A stretch of 64,000 nt of DNA from Clostridium sp. Marseille-P299 (lineage in GTDB: Bacteria > Bacillota > Clostridia > Lachnospirales > Lachnospiraceae): assembly GCF_900078195.1 (NCBI RefSeq), contig NZ_FJVE01000007.1, forward strand, positions 1,984,001 to 2,048,000, given 5' to 3'. The number at the start of each line of letters is the position of its first letter. Positions within the stretch are counted from its first letter, which is position 1. A model generated the notes under the pieces. It did not search any database and was not told where the DNA came from. It saw nothing but the letters and a program-made list of their open reading frames with translations. Below are positions 26,195 to 36,193 of this stretch, piece after piece. A program made the position numbers and the translations under genes.

Positions 26195-26277
26195 ATGCCT
26201 AAGTTCGTCAAAACGGCTCTCCCATCTCCAAAAGAGAGTGAGGATAACCCTTTGGGACCTCAGAAATGGAGGTCGCT

Positions 26278-26700
26278 ATGACAAACGAACAGAAACAGCA
26301 AATCATAAAATTGCGACAGGACGGATACGGGTATGCTACCATCGCTTCCTCTCTGGGCCTGACGAAAAACCAAGTATCCGCCTTCTGCCGCAGAAGCAAT
26401 CTGACCGGCACCAAAGCGGCTGTGCATATAGAAGAAAAGCCGGAGCCGAACTGCTGCCGTAACTGCGGCAAGCCTCTGACACAGACATCGGGACGCAAGC
26501 CTGTGAAGTTCTGCTGCGATGACTGCCGTACTCACTGGTGGAACGCCCATCTGGACAAAGTCAACCGCAAAGCCTTTTATTCCTTTACCTGCACCTGCTG
26601 CGGGAAACCTTTCACGGCCTACGGGAACAGCCACAGAAAATACTGCTCCCACAACTGTTACATCGTGGACCGCTTCAAAGGTGGTGATTGCCATGACTGA
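26278..26700 (+). CDS. HTH / zinc-finger regulator near recombinases
   Basis: A 140-residue protein. A helix-turn-helix at residues about 6-38 (QQIIKLRQDGYGYATIASSLGL) precedes a Cys-rich region with paired knuckles (CCRNCGKPL; FCCDDC; CTCCGKPF; YCSHNC). Such RNA-polymerase/sigma-like HTH proteins lie before the serine recombinases in many clostridial elements; control of excision is plausible but unproven. GGAGGT precedes ATG 26278, and the 3' end overlaps the next gene by 8 bp. Confidence 0.75.
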   Translation: MTNEQKQQIIKLRQDGYGYATIASSLGLTKNQVSAFCRRSNLTGTKAAVHIEEKPEPNCCRNCGKPLTQTSGRKPVKFCCDDCRTHWWNAHLDKVNRKAFYSFTCTCCGKPFTAYGNSHRKYCSHNCYIVDRFKGGDCHD

Positions 26701-26912: not shown

Positions 26913-28709
26913 ATGCGAAAAATCAACAAAATAGAGCCATTGATGCCTGCGCTACCGACCCGCAAAAAGGTCGCAGCCTATGCCAGAGTTTCAATGGAAA
27001 GTGAACGCCTCCAGCACTCTTTATCAGCTCAGGTCAGCTACTACAGCGAACTGATACAGAGCAACCCGGAATGGGAATATGCTGGTGTGTATGCTGACGA
27101 CGGCATCACAGGCACTAAGACAAACCGAGAAGAATTTCAGAGACTGCTTGCTGACTGCGAGGCCGGGAAAATCGACATTATTCTTACCAAGTCCATCTCC
27201 CGCTTTGCCAGAAATACAGTAGACCTTTTGGAAACCGTCCGCCACTTAAAGGAGCTGGGCATTGAGGTCCGCTTTGAAAAGGAGCGCATCAATTCCTTGT
27301 CCGGCGATGGCGAGGTCATGCTGACGCTGCTGGCTTCCTTTGCACAGGAAGAAATCATCAGCCTGAGCAACAATGTAAAATGGGGAACCAGAAAGCGCAT
27401 GGAGCAAGGCATCCCTAACGGCCACTTTAGAGTGTACGGCTACCGCTGGGAAGGCGACCAGCTGGTTATTGTCCCGGAGGAAGCAGCCATTGTTCGACGC
27501 ATCTTCCAGAACTTCCTTGATGGCAAGTCCCGCCTTGAAACCGAGCGAGAATTTGCCGCCGAGGGCATCACCACCAGAGACGGATGCCGCTGGGTGGACT
27601 CCAACATCAAAGTGGTTCTCAGCAATATAACCTACACCGGAAACCTGCTCCTGCAGAAAGAATATGTGGAAGACCCGCTTACCAAAAAGCGAAAAAAGAA
27701 CCGTGGCGAGCTGCCGCAGTTCTATGTGGAGGACACCCATGAAGCCATCATCGACAAAGAGACCTTCGACTATGTGCAAGCTGAAATGGCAAGACGCAAA
27801 GAGCTGGGCGCTTTCGCAAACAAATCCCTGAATATTACCTGCTTTACCAGCAAGCTCAAATGCAGTCGCTGCGGATGCAGTTATGTGCGTAATCAGAGAG
27901 CCAACCGAACCAAGCACACTTCCACCTACGACGATACGATTGTGGTTTGGGGATGCGGCACTCAGAAGAAAAAAGGTGGCCGCTGCTCCAACAAGGACAT
28001 TCCGGAGCGTGTGCTGCGAGAAGCCTGCGCTGCTGCACTGGACCTTGAGGACTTCGACGAGGATATTTTCCTTGAGCGTGTTGACACCATTCAGGTGCTG
28101 GACGGTCAGGTTCTGGAGTTTCATTTCTACGACGGCACTGTTTCCCAGATTGAATGGGTATCCACAGCCAAGAAAGATTGCTGGACGGATGAACACAAAG
28201 ACCGCCAGCGTGAGTGGATGCGCAACTACATGGCGAACGCTACAGATGGCCGCTATTCGGAATTCACCACCAGAATCCGCTGTGATAACTGCGGTAGCAC
28301 TTTCCGCAGGAATACGCAACCCAGCAAGTCAGCCGACGGCGGCAAGATGCATTATTGGCGCTGCCCGACTTCCGGCGACTGCGTTACTACCGGCATTCGT
28401 GAGGACAGGCTCAAGGAACTGACCGCTTCGGTGATGGGCCTTGCCGAACACGATGCGGAAGCCTTCAAAGCGCAGATCGAGTACATTTCGGTCGCTGCCG
28501 GTATGGTTCTGACCTTCCACTTCTTTGATGGCCGGGAAGAAAGCATCCAGTACAACACCAAGCGCCAAGGCACAGCATGGACACCGGAGCGCCGTGAGAA
28601 ATTCAAATCTTCTATGCAAGGCAAATATACCGAGGAGCGCCGACAGGCCATGAGCGAAAATATGAAACGGATAAGGAGTGAGAAACATTGGTCGTCCAAA
28701 AGAAAGTAA
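26913..28709 (+). CDS. Large serine recombinase 1
   Basis: A 598-residue large serine recombinase. The catalytic domain (1-155) has the nucleophile Ser27 in AYARVSMES, the GITGT loop and SISRFARNTVDLLE with the active-site arginine. A recombinase domain (about 170-290) follows, then two separate zinc-ribbon segments (CSRCGCSY with a later C, and CDNCGSTF). It catalyses integration or excision at attachment sites. GGAGC precedes ATG 26913, and the 3' end overlaps recombinase 2 by 22 bp. Confidence 0.93.
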   Translation: MRKINKIEPLMPALPTRKKVAAYARVSMESERLQHSLSAQVSYYSELIQSNPEWEYAGVYADDGITGTKTNREEFQRLLADCEAGKIDIILTKSISRFARNTVDLLETVRHLKELGIEVRFEKERINSLSGDGEVMLTLLASFAQEEIISLSNNVKWGTRKRMEQGIPNGHFRVYGYRWEGDQLVIVPEEAAIVRRIFQNFLDGKSRLETEREFAAEGITTRDGCRWVDSNIKVVLSNITYTGNLLLQKEYVEDPLTKKRKKNRGELPQFYVEDTHEAIIDKETFDYVQAEMARRKELGAFANKSLNITCFTSKLKCSRCGCSYVRNQRANRTKHTSTYDDTIVVWGCGTQKKKGGRCSNKDIPERVLREACAAALDLEDFDEDIFLERVDTIQVLDGQVLEFHFYDGTVSQIEWVSTAKKDCWTDEHKDRQREWMRNYMANATDGRYSEFTTRIRCDNCGSTFRRNTQPSKSADGGKMHYWRCPTSGDCVTTGIREDRLKELTASVMGLAEHDAEAFKAQIEYISVAAGMVLTFHFFDGREESIQYNTKRQGTAWTPERREKFKSSMQGKYTEERRQAMSENMKRIRSEKHWSSKRK

Positions 28710-30271
28710 CCACAATACCGGCGACGCTGACCAGATTTACAGCAACGCCAATCAACCAGCAGAAAAAACGCCGTGTGGCCGGATACGCCCGTGTTTCCAC
28801 CGACCACGATGACCAGTTCACCAGCTACGCTGCGCAGGTTGATTATTACACCAACTACATCAAAGGCCGTGACGATTGGGAGTTTGTCGATGTTTATACC
28901 GACGAAGGTATAACCGGAACCAGCACCAAGCGTCGTGAAGGCTTCAAGCGCATGGTCGCCGACGCTCTGGACGGAAAGATTGACCTGATTGTCACCAAGT
29001 CGGTCAGCCGATTTGCCCGTAACACCGTCGACAGCCTGACTACCATTCGACAGCTCAAGGAAAAAGGCATCGAGGTCTATTTTGAAAAAGAAAACATCTG
29101 GACCTTTGATGGCAAGGGCGAACTGCTCTTGACCATCATGTCCTCACTGGCGCAGGAAGAAAGTCGCAGCATTTCCGAGAACTGCACTTGGGGTCAAAGA
29201 AAGCGCTTTGCAGACGGTAAAGTCACCGTTCCATTCAACCGCTTCCTCGGTTACGACCGTGGCCCGGACGGAAATCTGGTAGTCAACCCGGAGCAGGCAG
29301 TTATCGTGCAGCGCATTTACGCCATGTTCCTGCAGGGAATAAGCTACCACGGCATCGCCAAGCAACTGACCGTCGACGGAATTCCTACACCCGGCGGCAA
29401 GGATAAATGGAGCATTTCCACTATCCGCAGCATTCTCAGCAACGAGAAGTACAAAGGCGACGCACTTCTGCAGAAGTCCTACACCGTGGATTTCCTGACC
29501 AAAAAGACCAAAGTCAACGAGGGCGAAATCCCACAATACTATGTAGAGGAAAACCACGAAGCCATTATTTCACCGGATGTTTTCGCAATGGTCCAGCGTG
29601 AAATGGCCAAGCGTGGTCGTGGCAAGAATTATCATAGCAGCGTACACGCATTCTCCTCGCAGATCCGTTGCGGTCAGTGCGGATGCTGGTATGGCTCAAA
29701 GGTCTGGCACTCCAACAGCAAATACCGCAAGACCGTCTGGCAGTGCAATCACAAATTCGACAACGATGAACATTGCACCACGCCGCATCTGACGGATGAG
29801 GACATCCAGAACGCTTTCCTGTCGGCGGCAAACAAGCTGCTGGCCACCAAAGACGAGGTCATCGCCAACGGTCACGAGATGGTGGAACTGCTTTTTGACA
29901 CTTCCGAGCTGGAAACGGAACAGACCACCTTGCTGGAAGAAACGCAGCTGATTTCGGATATGGTACAGCAGAGCATTTACGAGAATGCCCATGTTGCCCT
30001 CGACCAAGCGGAATACCAGAAGCGCTATGACAGCCTGACGCATCGATTCGATACTGCAAAGGAGCGCTTGGAGACGGTCATGGCCCAGCTCCAGCAGATG
30101 CAGCTGCAACGAGCCGACATTGAAACTTTCCTCCAGTCCTTTAAGGAGCTGCCGGACACACTCACCGAGTTTAGCGCTGAAAACTGGCATGCGCTGGTGG
30201 ATTACGCCACCGTCTACAGTGCAGACGATATTCGCATCACCTTCAAGCACGGACAGGAAATAAAGGCATAA
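28688..30271 (+). CDS. Large serine recombinase 2
   Basis: A 527-residue large serine recombinase. The nucleophile is Ser37 in GYARVSTDHDD, followed by EGITGTSTKRREGF and SVSRFARNTVDSLTTI, a recombinase domain, a zinc ribbon (CGQCGCWYGS, CNH, C) and a C-terminal coiled coil (about 400-490). The TTG start overlaps the end of recombinase 1 with AAGGAG upstream. It is clearly a divergent paralogue and not a copy, so the two proteins may act as a pair or in different directions. Confidence 0.93.
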   Translation: MVVQKKVTTIPATLTRFTATPINQQKKRRVAGYARVSTDHDDQFTSYAAQVDYYTNYIKGRDDWEFVDVYTDEGITGTSTKRREGFKRMVADALDGKIDLIVTKSVSRFARNTVDSLTTIRQLKEKGIEVYFEKENIWTFDGKGELLLTIMSSLAQEESRSISENCTWGQRKRFADGKVTVPFNRFLGYDRGPDGNLVVNPEQAVIVQRIYAMFLQGISYHGIAKQLTVDGIPTPGGKDKWSISTIRSILSNEKYKGDALLQKSYTVDFLTKKTKVNEGEIPQYYVEENHEAIISPDVFAMVQREMAKRGRGKNYHSSVHAFSSQIRCGQCGCWYGSKVWHSNSKYRKTVWQCNHKFDNDEHCTTPHLTDEDIQNAFLSAANKLLATKDEVIANGHEMVELLFDTSELETEQTTLLEETQLISDMVQQSIYENAHVALDQAEYQKRYDSLTHRFDTAKERLETVMAQLQQMQLQRADIETFLQSFKELPDTLTEFSAENWHALVDYATVYSADDIRITFKHGQEIKA

Positions 30272-30288: not shown

Positions 30289-30332
30289 CGCCTCACCACT
30301 GGATTTGATTCCGGTAGTGAGGCGCTTTTTTT
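30289..30332 (+). terminator. Terminator between convergent recombinase and cargo operons
   Basis: CGCCTCACCACTGG pairs with CCGGTAGTGAGGCG (one mismatch) around an ATTTGATT loop, followed by seven T on the + strand. The cargo gene stop at 30331 lies at its edge. Confidence 0.88.
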
Positions 30333-30600
30333 ATTCATCGCTTGATTTTATTTTCTTTTCGAGAGGAGCAATGAATGCTTCTTTCCATACAACAAATTGC
30401 TTTGATGGTTTCTTGGCACGTTGCCTCCACTGTTCAAGATGCAAGATGTAAGCATCTTTATTCATCTCGTTTGCGTCATCTCTAACTTTGTACGCAAGAT
30501 CATTGCAGTCAACACAGAAGTTGAGCTGACCGTCCTTTGTCTTTACTGCAGCAAAGGACTCAAACAGTTTTTTCTTTCTTCCACAGCAATCACATACCAT
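30331..30600 (-). CDS. Cargo operon gene 3: zinc-ribbon protein
   Basis: An 89-residue charged protein with two Cys pairs (CDCC at residues 3-6; CVDC at 29-32), which should form a zinc ribbon, and a basic C-terminal helix region (WRQRAKKPSKQ). It starts 11 bp inside the end of the 647-residue gene with AAGGAGG upstream, so it is co-translated. No family is recognised. It may bind nucleic acid or another operon product. Confidence 0.7.
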   Translation of the reverse strand: MVCDCCGRKKKLFESFAAVKTKDGQLNFCVDCNDLAYKVRDDANEMNKDAYILHLEQWRQRAKKPSKQFVVWKEAFIAPLEKKIKSSDE

Positions 30601-32533
30601 ATGCTAATCCTCCTTCCAAGACTATACTGCTTATAGAACTACCCATTTCTGCTTCTTCATCCGCACCAATTACATGGCGTTTCTTAATGATTTTACGAAT
30701 TTTCGGCTCAAGATAATCTACAACATCCTTTTCTTGGTGGTCTGACTTCAGAAGACCCTGTTGCAAATCTCGCAGATTATCTTCGTCGTCATCTAACATA
30801 GAAATAATCATATCCTGCTCATCAGGAGTCAACATATAATCGATAAACTGATTGAGTAGTACCGCATTAAAAAGGCGAGCTGTTATAATGGCATCATCCT
30901 CATGCAGAAGGTTTCCGATAGCTTTTACTGCCGTACCACCGAGTGCGCCTCCTACAACACCCGCAACAAGACCGATTGCAGAGCCAACCTTTTTATTTAC
31001 TTTTTCTCCGATTGTCTTTCCAAGTGCTGCACCTGCGGCAGTAGTCGCTGCTATGCTACACATAAACGAAGCCGCAAGTGATGTCATGTTCTTCCAGTAT
31101 TGAGAACCGGAGATTTTTCCACTAATCGCCTTATATGTGTCAGGCACCGTAAAAACAAAAAACATGATACCTTGCGTTATAGCAGTAGAACCTAAAAATT
31201 TTGCAAAGCTTTTTTGTGCTGCTGCCCCGTAAATTGCCTTTTTTCCAGCCAACGCTCTGAATGCATTCACAATTTCCTGAACTAATTGCGGACTCAAACT
31301 CTTACTAATTTCCGTGGCCAAAGGATTCAGTGAAGCAGCTAAACTGGTACGAGAAATCTGGGATGCGATGATACCTCCGGCAAAAGCAAGACCATAAACC
31401 TGTATTCCTGTGTACAATGCACTTTTTGCAGCTTTCTTATAGTCCTTGGTTACCCAAAAAACTTGAGCAAAAGCTACAACTGCAGATATACCAAATGCCG
31501 ACAAACAGGTCACTGCGCCGGTAGCCACATCAAATGTAATTGATTCAATAGTTCCGGCCTTTGCAAGGTTGAGTGCTTGATTATAGGTAAGTTTTCCTTT
31601 TCGAATGATGTCATAGGCCATATTCGGATCAGAAACTCCCGGCACCTGTCCGTTGCTAATTCTTGTTTTCATATATTCAATGGCCTGTGAATACTGGTCC
31701 GCAGGAACTTCAATTTTCATTGCGTTACCAGACAAATCGTAGTAGCGGAATGTTTTCGTTCCTGTCGTTGGATCATTTTTGAAACAAGAATTAACAGACG
31801 AATATGCTGTTTTACAATACTTGCACTGGATGGGTGAAGCATCAACAATTTTATCGGGACCGTTCTTTGCGTTATCACGTCCTACAACAGTTGCTTGTTC
31901 ACCCGCTAAACGGTCCAGAATCGTTCCGGCTTCTTCTGCATAAATGCCGTGGCCAGTCTTTGTCTGATCAGCTCCATACGCTGCATTGAACATGACACCT
32001 TCAACATTTACAGTATTTATAGCACTGAATGTTGAATTTTCGACGGTAGCTTCGGCAAGCTCTCTCCGCTCAATAGCCAGCTTTTTGTATTTTCGGAAAA
32101 ACTGAAATAACGCTGCGCTTTCAAATTGTGCCAGTTCCGTCTTTCCAGCTTTCAATGTATACCGTGTTTTTCCTTTACCAGCATCGAAAGCAACAACCTC
32201 ATAATCCTCTGGAGAATAATACTCCCACGGAATAATTTGATATATTACCTTCACCGTGTTAGCCTTTTCTTTTGAACCGCTCTGCTTCTTTTGTTCTTTG
32301 GCAAGGTCATTATTATGCTTAACTTCATCACGTGTAGCCTTTACAATCAAACCACGGTCTGTAATCACGATACCTGCCGGATATCCTCCAAAACTCGAAA
32401 TATCTGCCCATCTGATTTTATGATCTGTTGGGACAGGAATATATTCATGGATTTTCTTTGTATTGGCTTTATCCAGCAAGGTAGGCGATTCAGGTAATTG
32501 TGCAATCAGCTGTTCTAAAATATCGTCAATCAT
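30590..32533 (-). CDS. Cargo operon gene 2: PH-like, glycine-zipper membrane protein
   Basis: A 647-residue protein. Residues about 35-150 have the strand pattern of a bacterial PH-like domain (IVITDRGLIVK, IPWEYY, RYTLKAGK, then a FESAALFQFFRKY helix). Residues 180-330 form a conserved-looking core with GHG (194-196), DNAKNG (220-225), KYC (238-240), EVP (275-277) and GQVPGV (295-300). Hydrophobic stretches follow at 335-395, 445-465 and 485-545, the last a Gly/Ala zipper (GLVAGVVGGALGGTA). An acidic tail ends it. ATG 32533 has AAGGAGG 6 nt upstream and overlaps gene 1. Function unknown; a pore-forming or effector role is speculation. Confidence 0.75.
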   Translation of the reverse strand: MIDDILEQLIAQLPESPTLLDKANTKKIHEYIPVPTDHKIRWADISSFGGYPAGIVITDRGLIVKATRDEVKHNNDLAKEQKKQSGSKEKANTVKVIYQIIPWEYYSPEDYEVVAFDAGKGKTRYTLKAGKTELAQFESAALFQFFRKYKKLAIERRELAEATVENSTFSAINTVNVEGVMFNAAYGADQTKTGHGIYAEEAGTILDRLAGEQATVVGRDNAKNGPDKIVDASPIQCKYCKTAYSSVNSCFKNDPTTGTKTFRYYDLSGNAMKIEVPADQYSQAIEYMKTRISNGQVPGVSDPNMAYDIIRKGKLTYNQALNLAKAGTIESITFDVATGAVTCLSAFGISAVVAFAQVFWVTKDYKKAAKSALYTGIQVYGLAFAGGIIASQISRTSLAASLNPLATEISKSLSPQLVQEIVNAFRALAGKKAIYGAAAQKSFAKFLGSTAITQGIMFFVFTVPDTYKAISGKISGSQYWKNMTSLAASFMCSIAATTAAGAALGKTIGEKVNKKVGSAIGLVAGVVGGALGGTAVKAIGNLLHEDDAIITARLFNAVLLNQFIDYMLTPDEQDMIISMLDDDEDNLRDLQQGLLKSDHQEKDVVDYLEPKIRKIIKKRHVIGADEEAEMGSSISSIVLEGGLAYGM

Positions 32534-33005
32534 GAGCGTCCTCCTTCTCTCCAGATAGGCTATCAATCAGTTTTTGAAATTCTGTGATTTGCGACCGGTC
32601 GGCTTCAATTTGCTTTTGAAGCTGATGAATAGTATCTTCCTTCGCTTTGATGGCCTCAGTATATCTTTGGATTTCACCACGGAGGAAGTTGATAACATCT
32701 TTGTTAGAAATGCGGGCCTTCTTCAGCTGTTCTGCATCAATTAGCTTCTGCGCAACCAGACCTCCCACCATAACGGTCGGCAGTACGGCAGCTCCAACCA
32801 CTGCACCTGCTAATGAGGCTTTTGCCGCAGCTGCATATTTCGGTGAAGATTTGAGAAACTCATGAAGCGCCGCTTCGTAGACAATGTGTCCACCTTTTTT
32901 CGATTCTATTGTCGCATCGAGCTTTTTGTCACGAATCCATCGACGCACGGTTTCAGGATTTGTATTCAGCATTTCAGCGATTTCTTTTACGCTATAGGTT
33001 TTCAC
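32526..33005 (-). CDS. Cargo operon gene 1: membrane-tethered HTH regulator
   Basis: A 159-residue protein. Residues 1-52 are a MerR/excisionase-type helix-turn-helix (VKEIAEMLNTNPETVRRWI). Residues about 58-88 are an uninterrupted small-residue hydrophobic segment (AGAVVGAAVLPTVMVGGLVA), and 95-150 form a coiled coil. A DNA-binding head tied to membrane and coil is unusual. The GTG start has AAGGAGG 7 nt upstream. Its likely target is the iterated sites in the promoter directly upstream. It could also be an excisionase-like factor, but the membrane segment argues against that. Confidence 0.75.
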   Translation of the reverse strand: MKTYSVKEIAEMLNTNPETVRRWIRDKKLDATIESKKGGHIVYEAALHEFLKSSPKYAAAAKASLAGAVVGAAVLPTVMVGGLVAQKLIDAEQLKKARISNKDVINFLRGEIQRYTEAIKAKEDTIHQLQKQIEADRSQITEFQKLIDSLSGEKEDAHD

Positions 33006-33032
33006 GCCATCGCCTCCTTCCTAACTGAACAT

Positions 33033-33107
33033 AGTATATCACAAAAATGTAGCATTAACAAGTGTTTTGTAGTATTAAAATGTAGTGTTAATAAAAATGT
33101 TACATTT
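33033..33107 (-). promoter_or_regulatory. Cargo operon promoter with iterated operators
   Basis: On the minus strand TTGTTA (33061-33056) and TATACT (33038-33033) are separated by 17 bp. Plus-strand repeats TGTAGCATTAA (33048), TGTAGTATTAA (33068) and TGTAGTGTTAA (33081), with a weaker TGTTACATTT at 33098, cover the spacer and the upstream region. The first repeat overlaps the -35, the arrangement expected for autorepression by the HTH protein of gene 1. Confidence 0.72.
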
Positions 33108-33115
33108 GCAGGCAT

Positions 33116-33140
33116 AAAAAAAGAGCCGGTTCTAAAACCG
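33116..33140 (-). terminator. Minus-strand terminator between att junction and cargo promoter
   Basis: On the minus strand CGGTT-TTAG-AACCG is followed by GCTC and seven T, then ATGCCT. It would stop transcription coming from truncated hsdM before the cargo promoter. Confidence 0.6.
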
Positions 33141-33166
33141 ACACCCTAAACGACACCCCGACACCC
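33139..33166. repeat. Three CGACACCC direct repeats beside the prophage end
   Basis: CGACACCC occurs at 33139-33146, 33151-33158 and 33159-33166, within 60 bp of the hsdM junction. They may be part of the recombinase binding site or an att arm. Confidence 0.6.
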
Positions 33167-33172
33167 TTGTGC

Positions 33173-33805
33173 CTATGCCGCATTTCTTTGTATTAAATAG
33201 CGAGTCTTAATTTCAAATACTCTACCCTTATAAGGCTCTATGATTTCTACTAATGTACGTACAATACAAGAAGGAGTATAGAATTCTCCTCCTAATTTTC
33301 CTTCTGCACTGGCAAATTTGCTAAGAAAATATTCATAAACTCTTCCTAATACATCTCGTTCTTTTGCAATATCCGTACCTACTTCAATATTGGCAAACAG
33401 TGTGACTAGTTCACCTAATCTAGTTTTATCAAGTTCAGGTCTAGAATAGTTTTTATTTAATACACCCTTTAGAGTGTTATTTTCTTTTTCAATTAATTCC
33501 ATTGCACGATCAATTACCTTACCAATATCAGGTGAAGTAGCATATGCTTCAATTGTACTCCATCTAGCCTCTAGTGGTACGTAAAAGATACTTTCAGCAG
33601 TATATTCATCTTTATCCTCTTCAAAACCAGAGCCTTCTTTTACTAGCTCCAAATGTTTTTCATTAAAAGAATCAGATACATATTTTAAAAAGATAAGTCC
33701 AAGTACTACATGCTTGTACTCAGCAGCATCCATGCTTCCACGTAACTTATCTGCAGCTAACCATAGTTTATCTTCAAAACCCACATTTGTCGTTCCTGTT
33801 GCCAT
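33173..33805 (-). pseudogene. hsdM: hsdM N-terminal fragment, cut by prophage insertion
   Basis: A 210-residue reading frame matching the N-terminal part of type I restriction-modification methyltransferase HsdM: the helical N-domain ([32 protein letters not shown]) and the start of the SAM domain ([36 protein letters not shown]). Family members continue with a DPCCGSGGM motif, but here the homology stops after GRV and a short unrelated tail (about 12 codons) ends in a stop. The SAM-binding and NPPF-type catalytic motifs are missing, so this piece cannot methylate. The rest should lie beyond the left prophage end. Confidence 0.88.
33200..33222. other. Right prophage-chromosome junction (att site)
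   Basis: HsdM homology ends at the codons for Gly-Arg-Val near 33218-33226. Bases further left belong to the element. Large serine recombinases use a 2-bp core inside about 40-50 bp sites, so the exact crossover cannot be fixed without the left end. Confidence 0.6.
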
Positions 33806-34891: not shown

Positions 34892-36193
34892 TCAACTAAT
34901 ACTCCGTCTTCTTTTAATATTTATTAACTCAGTAGACAATTTTTCTTCAAATTTTTTAATATCCTTTAATGCTAATATGGTCTTTTCTGTAATATCCTCT
35001 TCGTTGTTATCTAAATCATCAAATTTGAACCATTTTGTACTAAATAAGCGTTTATATTTAAAATTGTTTTTATTCTTGTCGTTAGGTTTTAAGATACTAA
35101 TTATTTTTTGCATATTTTCCATTTGATTATTTGGAACATTTAAACCGCCCACTTCAAAAACCACTCGAAATCTATCCTCTTTTATATCGAACCAATAGAA
35201 ATAAATTTGCTGTGTATTCCATGAACTATTTTTCTCACAAATAGGAGTAAGGTATTGATCCATAAAATATGTATTAAATCTAAGAAAACTGTTAGAACAA
35301 ATAGATGAATCAAATATCAGTTCATTACGCTCTGCCTGTTCTTTCAACACTTTCATAATACACTCTGAAACTTGGCTTCTTCCATCAACACGGTATTCAT
35401 ATATTAAATCCAAAGCCTTCTTGTGTTTTTGATATATTTTATTACAAATTTCAATTAGCCTTTCGTCTTGCACAATATCTCTCCTCAAAGTATCTAAATA
35501 ATTTTTAATAATTAATTCTACATCAGGTAATAAGTTTATCTTCCTTTTTGTAGCTTCCAATACTTCAACTATATCAGTATAAGTTAATATACTCCAATTT
35601 TCAACATCACTTGGTTCTTCTCCATCTGGTGTTAAATATATATATATCCGTTGATATTCAGGATATTCTTTTTCTAAAATATTTCTGTATCGATTCAACT
35701 GATTGCTATGCTCACGAGAACCAATTTTATTTTCTATTGCAATCAAGATACGATCGTCCTCTGATACAAGAAGTAAATCTATATTTTTCCACTCTCTATA
35801 GATAATAAAACTATAAAAATCCATTAACAACAATTGAAAAATATTATACTTACCTTCCACATCATTCTCTACAATTCGTTGCACAACACCTTTAATAAAC
35901 AGATCTCCTAAACCATGATTTTCATTTGGATTCAAAAGCCATGAAAGCATATTGCTATGACGAATTTCTGTTTTTGAGACTTTAAGTACGTCAAATATAT
36001 TAAGCTTGCTTGTCCAAGGACTTAATTCATCCAAACATTCAATATCTAGTAGAAAGTTCTGTAATGCTTCTTCGTCTGTTTTATTCAATTCATTATAGTC
36101 ATTACATTGAATGGGCTTGTAATTATTTGAAACATTGCTAGCTGTCGCTGCCCCTATTTCTACTTCTTGTAATTCCTCTTTTGAAACGCTCAT
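34892..36193 (-). CDS. PD-(D/E)XK nuclease family protein
   Basis: A 433-residue protein with the PDDEXK_4-type N-terminus: ETRHSNMLSWLLNPNENHGLG-like segment near residues 74-95, then the catalytic core NIDLLLVSEDD with IAIENKI supplying D and E-x-K (about residues 138-155), and QLNRYR. The C-terminal half resembles family accessory regions without motifs. Family members are widespread in defence islands and are thought to be restriction-like nucleases. AAGAGGTGAGCC precedes the ATG. Confidence 0.82.
   Translation of the reverse strand: MSVSKEELQEVEIGAATASNVSNNYKPIQCNDYNELNKTDEEALQNFLLDIECLDELSPWTSKLNIFDVLKVSKTEIRHSNMLSWLLNPNENHGLGDLFIKGVVQRIVENDVEGKYNIFQLLLMDFYSFIIYREWKNIDLLLVSEDDRILIAIENKIGSREHSNQLNRYRNILEKEYPEYQRIYIYLTPDGEEPSDVENWSILTYTDIVEVLEATKRKINLLPDVELIIKNYLDTLRRDIVQDERLIEICNKIYQKHKKALDLIYEYRVDGRSQVSECIMKVLKEQAERNELIFDSSICSNSFLRFNTYFMDQYLTPICEKNSSWNTQQIYFYWFDIKEDRFRVVFEVGGLNVPNNQMENMQKIISILKPNDKNKNNFKYKRLFSTKWFKFDDLDNNEEDITEKTILALKDIKKFEEKLSTELINIKRRRSIS

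Follow-up and report, generated by a model that had tools for sequence, protein, structure and literature searches.

Three known systems or families bear on the locus analysed here. SNIPE is presented in passages of PMC13190303 as a membrane-bound GIY-YIG nuclease, some homologues of which lack TM segments and carry PH or DUF4428 domains at the N-terminus. The yeeR gene of E. coli is described in passages of PMC9431211 and PMC8614746 as co-transcribed with flu and responsive to OxyR, and in a passage of PMC6480617 as truncated in K-12; its product is named ‘inner membrane protein YeeR’ in PMC13218381, PMC7696260 and PMC8144685. The passages on yeeR in PMC9431211, PMC6480617 and PMC8614746 give it no function, and the main texts of PMC13190303 and PMC9519451 do not mention YeeR. 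Finally, Bunzi (BnzB) and GmrSD type IV restriction are cargo of related phages in the very integrase/att slot considered below; BLAST of the 647-aa protein described here against that Bunzi and GmrSD cargo gave no similarity.

The locus and its place in the prophage

The window, a stretch of 64,000 nucleotides, holds three overlapping minus-strand ORFs (overlaps of 11 and 8 bp) flanked by two serine recombinase genes on the opposite strand and by an hsdM gene cut by the prophage (Table 1). The three genes are real; the 647-aa ORF counts as a gene because it has 395 homologues (E <= 0.001, among 7998 candidates scored). An alternative TTG start 33 bp upstream would lengthen its product to 658 aa. 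The operon has 41.6% GC against 49.7% for window positions 1-30271, where the lowest value for a stretch of 2777 bp, sampled every 200 bp, is 42.7%. The ORF coordinates and composition thus agree with the preliminary description, which had noted a tightly overlapping, opposite-strand operon between the recombinases and the att junction, AT-richer than the phage.

Table 1. Features of the cassette and its flanks (window coordinates)
Feature	Coordinates	Strand	Basis
Serine recombinase 1	26913..28709	+	Resolvase E 1.7e-30
Serine recombinase 2, likely integrase	28688..30271	+	Resolvase E 1.1e-33
89-aa zinc-ribbon partner protein	30331..30600	-	ORF; clade synteny
647-aa YeeR/PF27347-family protein: PH, PD-(D/E)XK-like core, membrane domain	30590..32533	-	homologues, models
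Helical Gly/Ala-rich, probably membrane, domain, residues about 329-545	30899..31549	-	hydropathy; helices in model
PD-(D/E)XK-like core, residues about 191-312; E200, D227, Q236, K238	31598..31963	-	core model, structural matches, invariance
N-terminal PH-like domain, residues about 36-145	32099..32428	-	structure model
159-aa protein, operon gene 1	32526..33005	-	GTG start; HTH_17, hydrophobic stretch, coiled-coil-like
Candidate promoter TTGTTA-17-TATACT	33033..33061	-	sequence scan
Imperfect direct repeat 33091-33077 / 33058-33044, possible operator	33044..33091	-	read by eye; function inferred
Terminator-like hairpin and T run, gap between hsdM fragment and operon	33125..33142	-	scan; number not above chance
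Truncated hsdM	33173..33805	-	HsdM_N E 5.4e-26; N6_Mtase match

A closely related phage, PV036449, places the cassette within the element. It matches 72% of window positions 1-25000 at 94% identity, its integrase is 97% identical to the one here, and window positions 33117-33216 are 98% identical to PV036449 at that phage's own hsdM junction; the slot held here by the three-gene cassette contains other genes in that phage. The host part of the hsdM fragment begins at about 33215, and its last codons are phage sequence. That the cassette is swappable prophage cargo beside the att site, as the preliminary description proposed, is therefore well supported. The promoter claimed in that description is less secure: a promoter-like site lies upstream of the first gene, but the number of such sites in the region (7, against 6.7 with sd 2.2 in shuffled sequence) is not above chance, and the promoter is unproved.

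A member of the YeeR/PF27347 family

The operon had been called uncharacterised. This holds for function, as far as the YeeR literature passages go, but not for name: homology extends over the core and C-terminal region, and membership of the 647-aa protein in the YeeR/PF27347 family is well supported by sequence comparison. PF27347.1 is carried by all 120 matches listed in each of three homologue searches, some RefSeq records label homologues ‘YeeR family protein’, and tblastn against E. coli YeeR gives E 2e-42. The E. coli protein shares the core and the region after it (query residues 194-483, 37% identity) and the same invariant residues. It differs elsewhere: the 838-aa YeeR of CP4-44 has N-terminal hydrophobic helices where the 647-aa protein has its PH domain and, in place of the separate zinc-ribbon gene of the present locus, contains a stretch that by eye is Cys-rich and ribbon-like.

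The family is large (at least 1721 homologues in one search) and patchily spread: a sample of 398 genomes across the phylum has it in 3, and a sample of 392 across the order in 14, the seed genome being counted. Two scans for the family in viral contigs both gave L001 as the only locus, and one in genome contigs gave two loci. A yeeR match is present in 2560 of 5426 complete E. coli genomes (47%), and covers at least 80% of the gene in 33%. Homologues lie on phages and plasmids, in E. coli islands and next to restriction genes; they are thus neither structural phage proteins nor confined to housekeeping operons, either of which would have spoken against the preliminary description. In a Klebsiella record, a YeeR-family gene lies between cah and irmA.

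A nuclease-like core

Searches by sequence gave little. Pfam, PHROGs, NCBIfam and PADLOC had nothing at threshold for the 647-aa or the 89-aa protein; a PDB sequence search with the 647-aa protein alone returned nothing, and one with the family profile (A3) returned rows that we take to be unrelated or of low complexity only, the best being a sodium channel (E 0.0029). A tape-measure or other structural role was rejected, since the two tape-measure matches, one in PHROGs (E 0.032) and one of the family profile in PDB (E 0.023), extend over the Gly-rich helices only.

Structure was more informative. The model of the full-length protein (pLDDT 69, pTM 0.41) is weak in the core, and in a VIA structural comparison the PH domain and membrane helices dominated the matches of the whole model; the core, of some 120 residues, was therefore modelled alone with 66 diverse sequences (m0891ff182988). 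The resulting model has a pLDDT of 83 overall, mostly above 90 in the core, and its topology starts alpha-beta-beta-beta-alpha-beta, the order of the PD-(D/E)XK fold. The first six Foldseek rows are chains of archaeal Hjc and I-Ssp6803I; VRR_NUC, PspGI, SPARDA, EcoT38I and CdiA-CT come further down, mixed with unrelated rows. With VIA-align, the first 35 rows consist almost entirely of what we take to be PD-(D/E)XK proteins. Every single match is weak; the structural neighbours as a set are mostly PD-(D/E)XK nucleases.

The residues agree with the fold. E200 lies in the first helix, D227 before beta2 and Q236-x-K238 at beta3; these four, with D207 and E275, are invariant in all 66 diverse sequences. 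K238 is one residue beyond the assigned strand in the core model. Of 360 homologues, 350 match the GHG/GQG..AE pattern, and D...Q-x-K is present in every one of these. Taken alone, the D-x(n)-Q-x-K string was rejected as evidence of a nuclease. Within the window's clade, conservation is 79% in the core, 81% in residues 313-345, 70% in the membrane part and 62% in the PH domain. Core topology and the placement of E, D and Q-x-K are the same as in Hjc, I-Ssp6803I, MspJI, EcoT38I, CdiA-CT and NucS; the 647-aa protein differs from these nucleases in its fused PH and membrane domains and has no sequence similarity to them detectable in Pfam or PDB searches.

A core with a PD-(D/E)XK-type fold and invariant catalytic-type residues is thus well supported. 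The motifs GHG, DNAKNG and GQVPGV picked out in the preliminary description are real conserved stretches in the alignment; for the core, the generic ‘sensor-effector’ that it had proposed gives way to a PD-(D/E)XK-type nuclease domain, which it had missed.

Predicted membrane parts and partner proteins

Further elements of the preliminary description concern the membrane and the partner genes. The PH-like N-domain of the 647-aa protein is borne out by the structure model. The glycine zipper has only a weak Pfam match (E 0.62), although residues 488-545 are indeed rich in G, A and S (45%). Hydropathy peaks at 341-359, 486-504 and 518-536, and the protein is predicted to associate with the membrane. 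Taken together with the core, this suggests a membrane-fixed DNA-cutting enzyme.

The 159-aa protein has the HTH (HTH_17, E 2e-11 in Pfam) and the hydrophobic stretch (residues 57-84 by hydropathy) expected of a membrane-tethered HTH/coiled-coil protein; the coiled coil was judged by eye. A similar membrane-anchored HTH/coiled-coil gene lies upstream of a homologue on a Selenomonas plasmid, but no such gene is directly upstream of the homologue at L001, L008 or L009: the HTH protein is a non-obligate partner of the nuclease gene. Its match to mad1 (E 4.1e-9) is limited to the HTH part, and the 647-aa and 89-aa proteins have no mad match in PADLOC, so the cassette does not qualify as MADS. The 89-aa protein is a zinc-ribbon protein, as had been claimed: each of the seven aligned relatives retains C3, C6, C29 and C32, and its gene follows the nuclease gene in all seven loci of the window's clade. 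A profile search with the zinc ribbon returned nothing useful, and a likeness to DUF4428 is weak (E 0.016, below threshold).

Defence context

Known or candidate defence genes occupy the same slot in three of six related phage records: PV036416 has BnzB (E 3.7e-99) and PDC-M09A (E 3.9e-70), PV036426 has BnzB (E 4.7e-64), and PV036460 has GmrSD (GmrSD_N E 2.1e-36; PADLOC Orf5 E 3e-192). The PADLOC sample behind this count comprised 10 of the 33 annotated genes of the six records (PV036412 contributing a methylase piece only and PV036438 one gene) and leaves out the cargo of PV036449, PV036423 and PV036458. A wider slot survey by PADLOC and Pfam (86 proteins, 43 loci) mixes host flank with cargo and has no matched control, so that no enrichment can be derived from it.

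Neighbours of homologues include HsdR, a type IV REase and PDC-S15 (L030), IetS nearby (L029) and a HerA/mad8-like gene (L034), among 10 proteins chosen by eye at four loci. At nine other loci, a scan of 104 of 109 picked proteins, without matched control, gave PDC-S05 (2.8e-118), DpdF (3.5e-115), PDC-S01 (1.2e-63), MkoA (4.5e-57) and Cas12f-like (9.1e-54) among 70 families, which are not assigned to individual proteins. Against the PADLOC system models (2023 library), the 647-aa protein itself has no matches beyond PDC-S29 (E 0.0096) and PDC-S64 (E 0.041), and is placed in neither. The slot sample makes the anti-phage role first suggested for the operon plausible; judged by this context, the cassette probably defends its host cell against other phages.

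Mechanism and alternatives

Our preferred reading, held with moderate confidence, is that the cassette is prophage cargo for phage defence, comprising a membrane-tethered PD-(D/E)XK-type nuclease, a zinc-ribbon partner and an HTH/coiled-coil regulator or sensor. That is, the PH and helical Gly-rich domains would anchor the nuclease to the cytoplasmic membrane on its inner side; there the nuclease would cut foreign DNA, most likely entering phage DNA; the lysogen, and therefore the prophage, would be protected. The HTH protein presumably regulates: it would most likely control the operon via the upstream repeats, and perhaps it senses a signal from the membrane or from DNA entry.

Cutting at DNA injection is suggested by analogy with SNIPE. 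In both, a conserved nuclease domain is joined to membrane-targeting parts, predicted ones in the present case, and the N-terminal regions vary (for SNIPE, passages of PMC13190303); as signs of SNIPE-type membrane localisation, a PH domain and hydrophobic helices are both predicted in the 647-aa protein. The differences are a PD-(D/E)XK-like core, several hydrophobic helices and a multi-gene operon. Neither GIY-YIG nor DUF4041 appears among Pfam matches to E 1 for the 647-aa and 89-aa proteins, or among the best 25 of 39 for the 159-aa protein.

An abortive-infection or toxin module, in which the infected cell would be killed or stalled by the nuclease, the Gly-rich domain or both (host DNA being cut or the membrane perforated) and the HTH protein would be the brake, is unlikely: the upstream regulator is not conserved (it is missing directly upstream at L001, L008 and L009), which argues against an obligate antitoxin, and the core is conserved better than the membrane part. 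The membrane-potential effect earlier envisaged finds no support in this analysis. Less probable again is superinfection or entry exclusion directed not at phages but at plasmids and conjugative elements. Homologues do occur on plasmids typed conjugative (Lactococcus, Klebsiella), and one (L027) lies in an apparent conjugation-gene region (by eye); but others are found in phages and in chromosomal stretches with no conjugation genes recognised by eye. We think it improbable, too, that the protein is a DNA-processing helper of mobile elements, a nuclease for integration, transfer or maintenance: several homologues do ride on such elements and the core resembles Holliday-junction resolvases, but membrane and PH domains are odd for that role, and PV036449 lacks the cassette. 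Reuse of the fold for another purpose, for example in a membrane protein of an Ag43/IrmA envelope programme as the flu co-transcription and OxyR response in E. coli might suggest, is very improbable, since the invariance of E200, D227, Q236 and K238 across distant homologues argues for catalysis and inspection by eye showed no Ag43-like neighbour beyond enterobacterial loci.

Wider implications

Defence by a membrane-tethered nuclease would offer a testable function for a family of this size and frequency in E. coli. Tentatively, and with some doubt, it can be taken further: YeeR-family proteins may be a second class, evolved independently, of anti-phage nucleases (PD-(D/E)XK fold) that are stationed at the membrane and cut DNA crossing it. 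On this reading the carrier phages would integrate in a host restriction methyltransferase gene, at its motif I region, and lysogeny would silence one restriction system of the host and bring another kind of defence. If so, the posting of nucleases at the membrane as a way of distinguishing a cell's own DNA from incoming DNA would have at least two origins, in which nuclease folds that are unrelated go with similar membrane-targeting modules (PH, and possibly the zinc ribbon). The family itself ranges from phages of gut Clostridia to E. coli, where close to half of the genomes have a match.

The operon and its surroundings

The three overlapping genes of the preliminary description are present where it placed them; all are on the minus strand (see table). 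The operon faces two serine recombinases; its other border is a truncated hsdM. GC content is 41.6% in the operon, versus 49.7% in the phage part and 33.6% in the host part. The 159-aa gene has, on its upstream side, a promoter-like site and an imperfect direct repeat of 15 bp, and between the operon and what is left of hsdM there is a terminator-like hairpin. Promoter-like and terminator-like sites are as numerous in the region as in shuffled sequence, so these assignments are guesses. The host flank holds, close to the interrupted hsdM, a gene for a PDDEXK_4 family protein (E 3.8e-38).

Features of the window discussed here
Feature	Position	Strand	Remark
small HTH and Cys-rich protein	26266-26700		just upstream of the recombinase pair
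89-aa zinc-ribbon gene	30331-30600	-	last gene of operon
647-aa gene	30590-32533	-	middle gene, overlaps neighbours
Gly-rich helices	30899-31549		weak tape-measure likeness
159-aa HTH/hydrophobic/coiled-coil gene	32526-33005	-	first gene of operon
phage-host junction	33173-33220		within hsdM
PDDEXK_4 family protein	34892-36193		host flank

The YeeR family

The 647-aa protein belongs to a family already known, YeeR (PF27347), for which the literature searched gives no function. One search, in which 7998 candidates were scored, gave 395 homologues at E <= 0.001; PF27347.1 was found on all 120 among the matches listed. Diverse members used as queries gave at least 1721 and 1191 homologues. Some of the matches listed carry the UniRef name YeeR (e.g. 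Pseudomonas fluorescens, Cupriavidus pauculus, Acetatifactor muris); others are ‘hypothetical’ (Serratia, Shewanella, Aliarcobacter, Ligilactobacillus). E. coli YeeR is 37% identical over query residues 194-483 (tblastn), and E. coli yeeR finds a match in 2560 of 5426 complete genomes, with at least 80% of gene length in 1780. The gene is described as a member of the flu-yeeR-irmA cluster, truncated in K-12; the available portions of that literature assign it no function.

Few sampled genomes have the family: 3 of 398 in the phylum sample and 14 of 392 in the order sample, seed genome counted; four of the 14 match the membrane part only and one is a distant relative. Stand-alone proteins at four order-sample loci (L022-L025; open frames of 230-257 aa) are akin to the Gly-rich membrane domain only (E about 5e-8 to 1e-9), in what by eye is seemingly ordinary chromosome. 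Another order-sample locus (L037, 9130-11448) encodes a 772-aa distant relative with a diverged core (E 1.3e-21, local profile search).

Partner genes and neighbours

In each of the seven loci examined from the window's clade (the window, L001, L008, L009, L027, L028 and L029), the next gene after that for the nuclease encodes the zinc-ribbon protein, with C3, C6, C29 and C32 invariant. Its weak Pfam matches include DUF4428, below threshold in both the window (E 0.016) and L027 (E 0.0078). It was not seen beside the more distant phage homologue L005, nor recognised next to short family forms.

The upstream gene differs between loci: HTH, hydrophobic stretch and coiled coil in the window; a DUF1232 protein in L027 and L029 (E 2.6e-13 and 4.2e-13) and, by eye, in L028; no HTH gene immediately upstream in L001, L008 or L009. 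On a Selenomonas plasmid, the gene upstream of a distant homologue encodes a 187-aa protein that combines HTH_17 (E 1.2e-9), a hydrophobic stretch starting at residue 87 and a coiled-coil-like tail; as this architecture resembles the window's, membrane-bound HTH proteins recur as an optional partner. A different small HTH and Cys-rich protein recurs, by eye, just upstream of the recombinase pair (the window; L001, 5905-6396; L005, 7181-7570), possibly a recombination directionality or DNA-binding factor.

Defence genes accompany some family members. Ten proteins picked by eye at four loci were searched. In L030 a type I restriction subunit (E 1.5e-297) precedes the YeeR-family gene and a type IV restriction enzyme (E 4.5e-244) follows, with a small gene intervening between it and the restriction genes, and PDC-S15 lies three genes upstream. 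IetS is encoded about 3 kb from the L029 homologue, and L034 has a HerA/mad8-like gene nearby; no defence gene was found among the neighbour proteins examined in L028. Across 104 neighbours at nine other loci, a broader, uncontrolled scan turned up scattered hits.

Likely role

SNIPE cleaves phage DNA during injection, and some TM-less homologues bear PH or DUF4428 domains (PMC13190303). The window system would, as predicted, have the same layout of a nuclease fixed at the membrane; it lacks the GIY-YIG and DUF4041 domains, and is therefore no SNIPE; by analogy, it may work like one. The 647-aa protein very probably has a nuclease fold and is, by prediction, likely to be located at the membrane. 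An anti-phage role is somewhat favoured; cutting of DNA at entry is a more tentative proposal, made by analogy with SNIPE. The leading alternative reading is that of a suicide nuclease or a pore. What is new here is the fold, the operon logic and the cargo swap; the link from YeeR to a membrane nuclease is of specialist interest and easily tested.

The Gly-rich helices show a weak tape-measure likeness (PHROG 794, E 0.032; family profile against PDB 9ki1_g, E 0.023), probably low complexity; this is curious given that SNIPE is reported to associate with tape-measure proteins.

Cargo exchange and the insertion site

At 94% identity, 72% of window positions 1-25000 align with phage PV036449 (‘Ca. 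Heliusvirales’, human faeces). The phage's second recombinase is 97% identical to the window's, and the phage DNA beside hsdM shares 98% identity with window 33117-33216. Between recombinase and junction, MerR-type, TM and Cys-rich proteins replace the operon. This replacement cargo (L041, 8313-9887) again combines an HTH (MerR) protein, a TM/coiled-coil-like protein and a small Cys-rich protein, without the nuclease.

PADLOC, applied to 10 of 33 annotated genes beyond the integrase in six related phage records, found BnzB and PDC-M09A in PV036416, BnzB in PV036426 and GmrSD in PV036460; in PV036420 and PV036412, and in PV036416 beside its cargo, it found methyltransferase pieces resembling the host flank. 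The single protein examined from PV036438 gave no match. None of 80 IMG/VR loci whose integrase is related (62 extend at least 400 bases past it) has the 647-aa gene; L057 carries a BnzB relative, and GmrSD relatives occur in L110, L117 and L123.

In L008, the YeeR gene lies at the same kind of hsdM junction as in the window. Related phages lie within host restriction methyltransferase genes, type I hsdM and MmeI-like type IIG, in the window, L041, L043, L045, L008, L054, L066, L087 and L098. All nine of these junctions, chosen for matching hsdM or MmeI, end at the apparent start of what we take to be N6-methylase motif I; the left side, visible in PV036449 only, continues LLDAACGSGAF. One motif I target common to two R-M types looks noteworthy. 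In Streptococcus ICEs, hsdM is a known serine-integrase target (PMC4701971).
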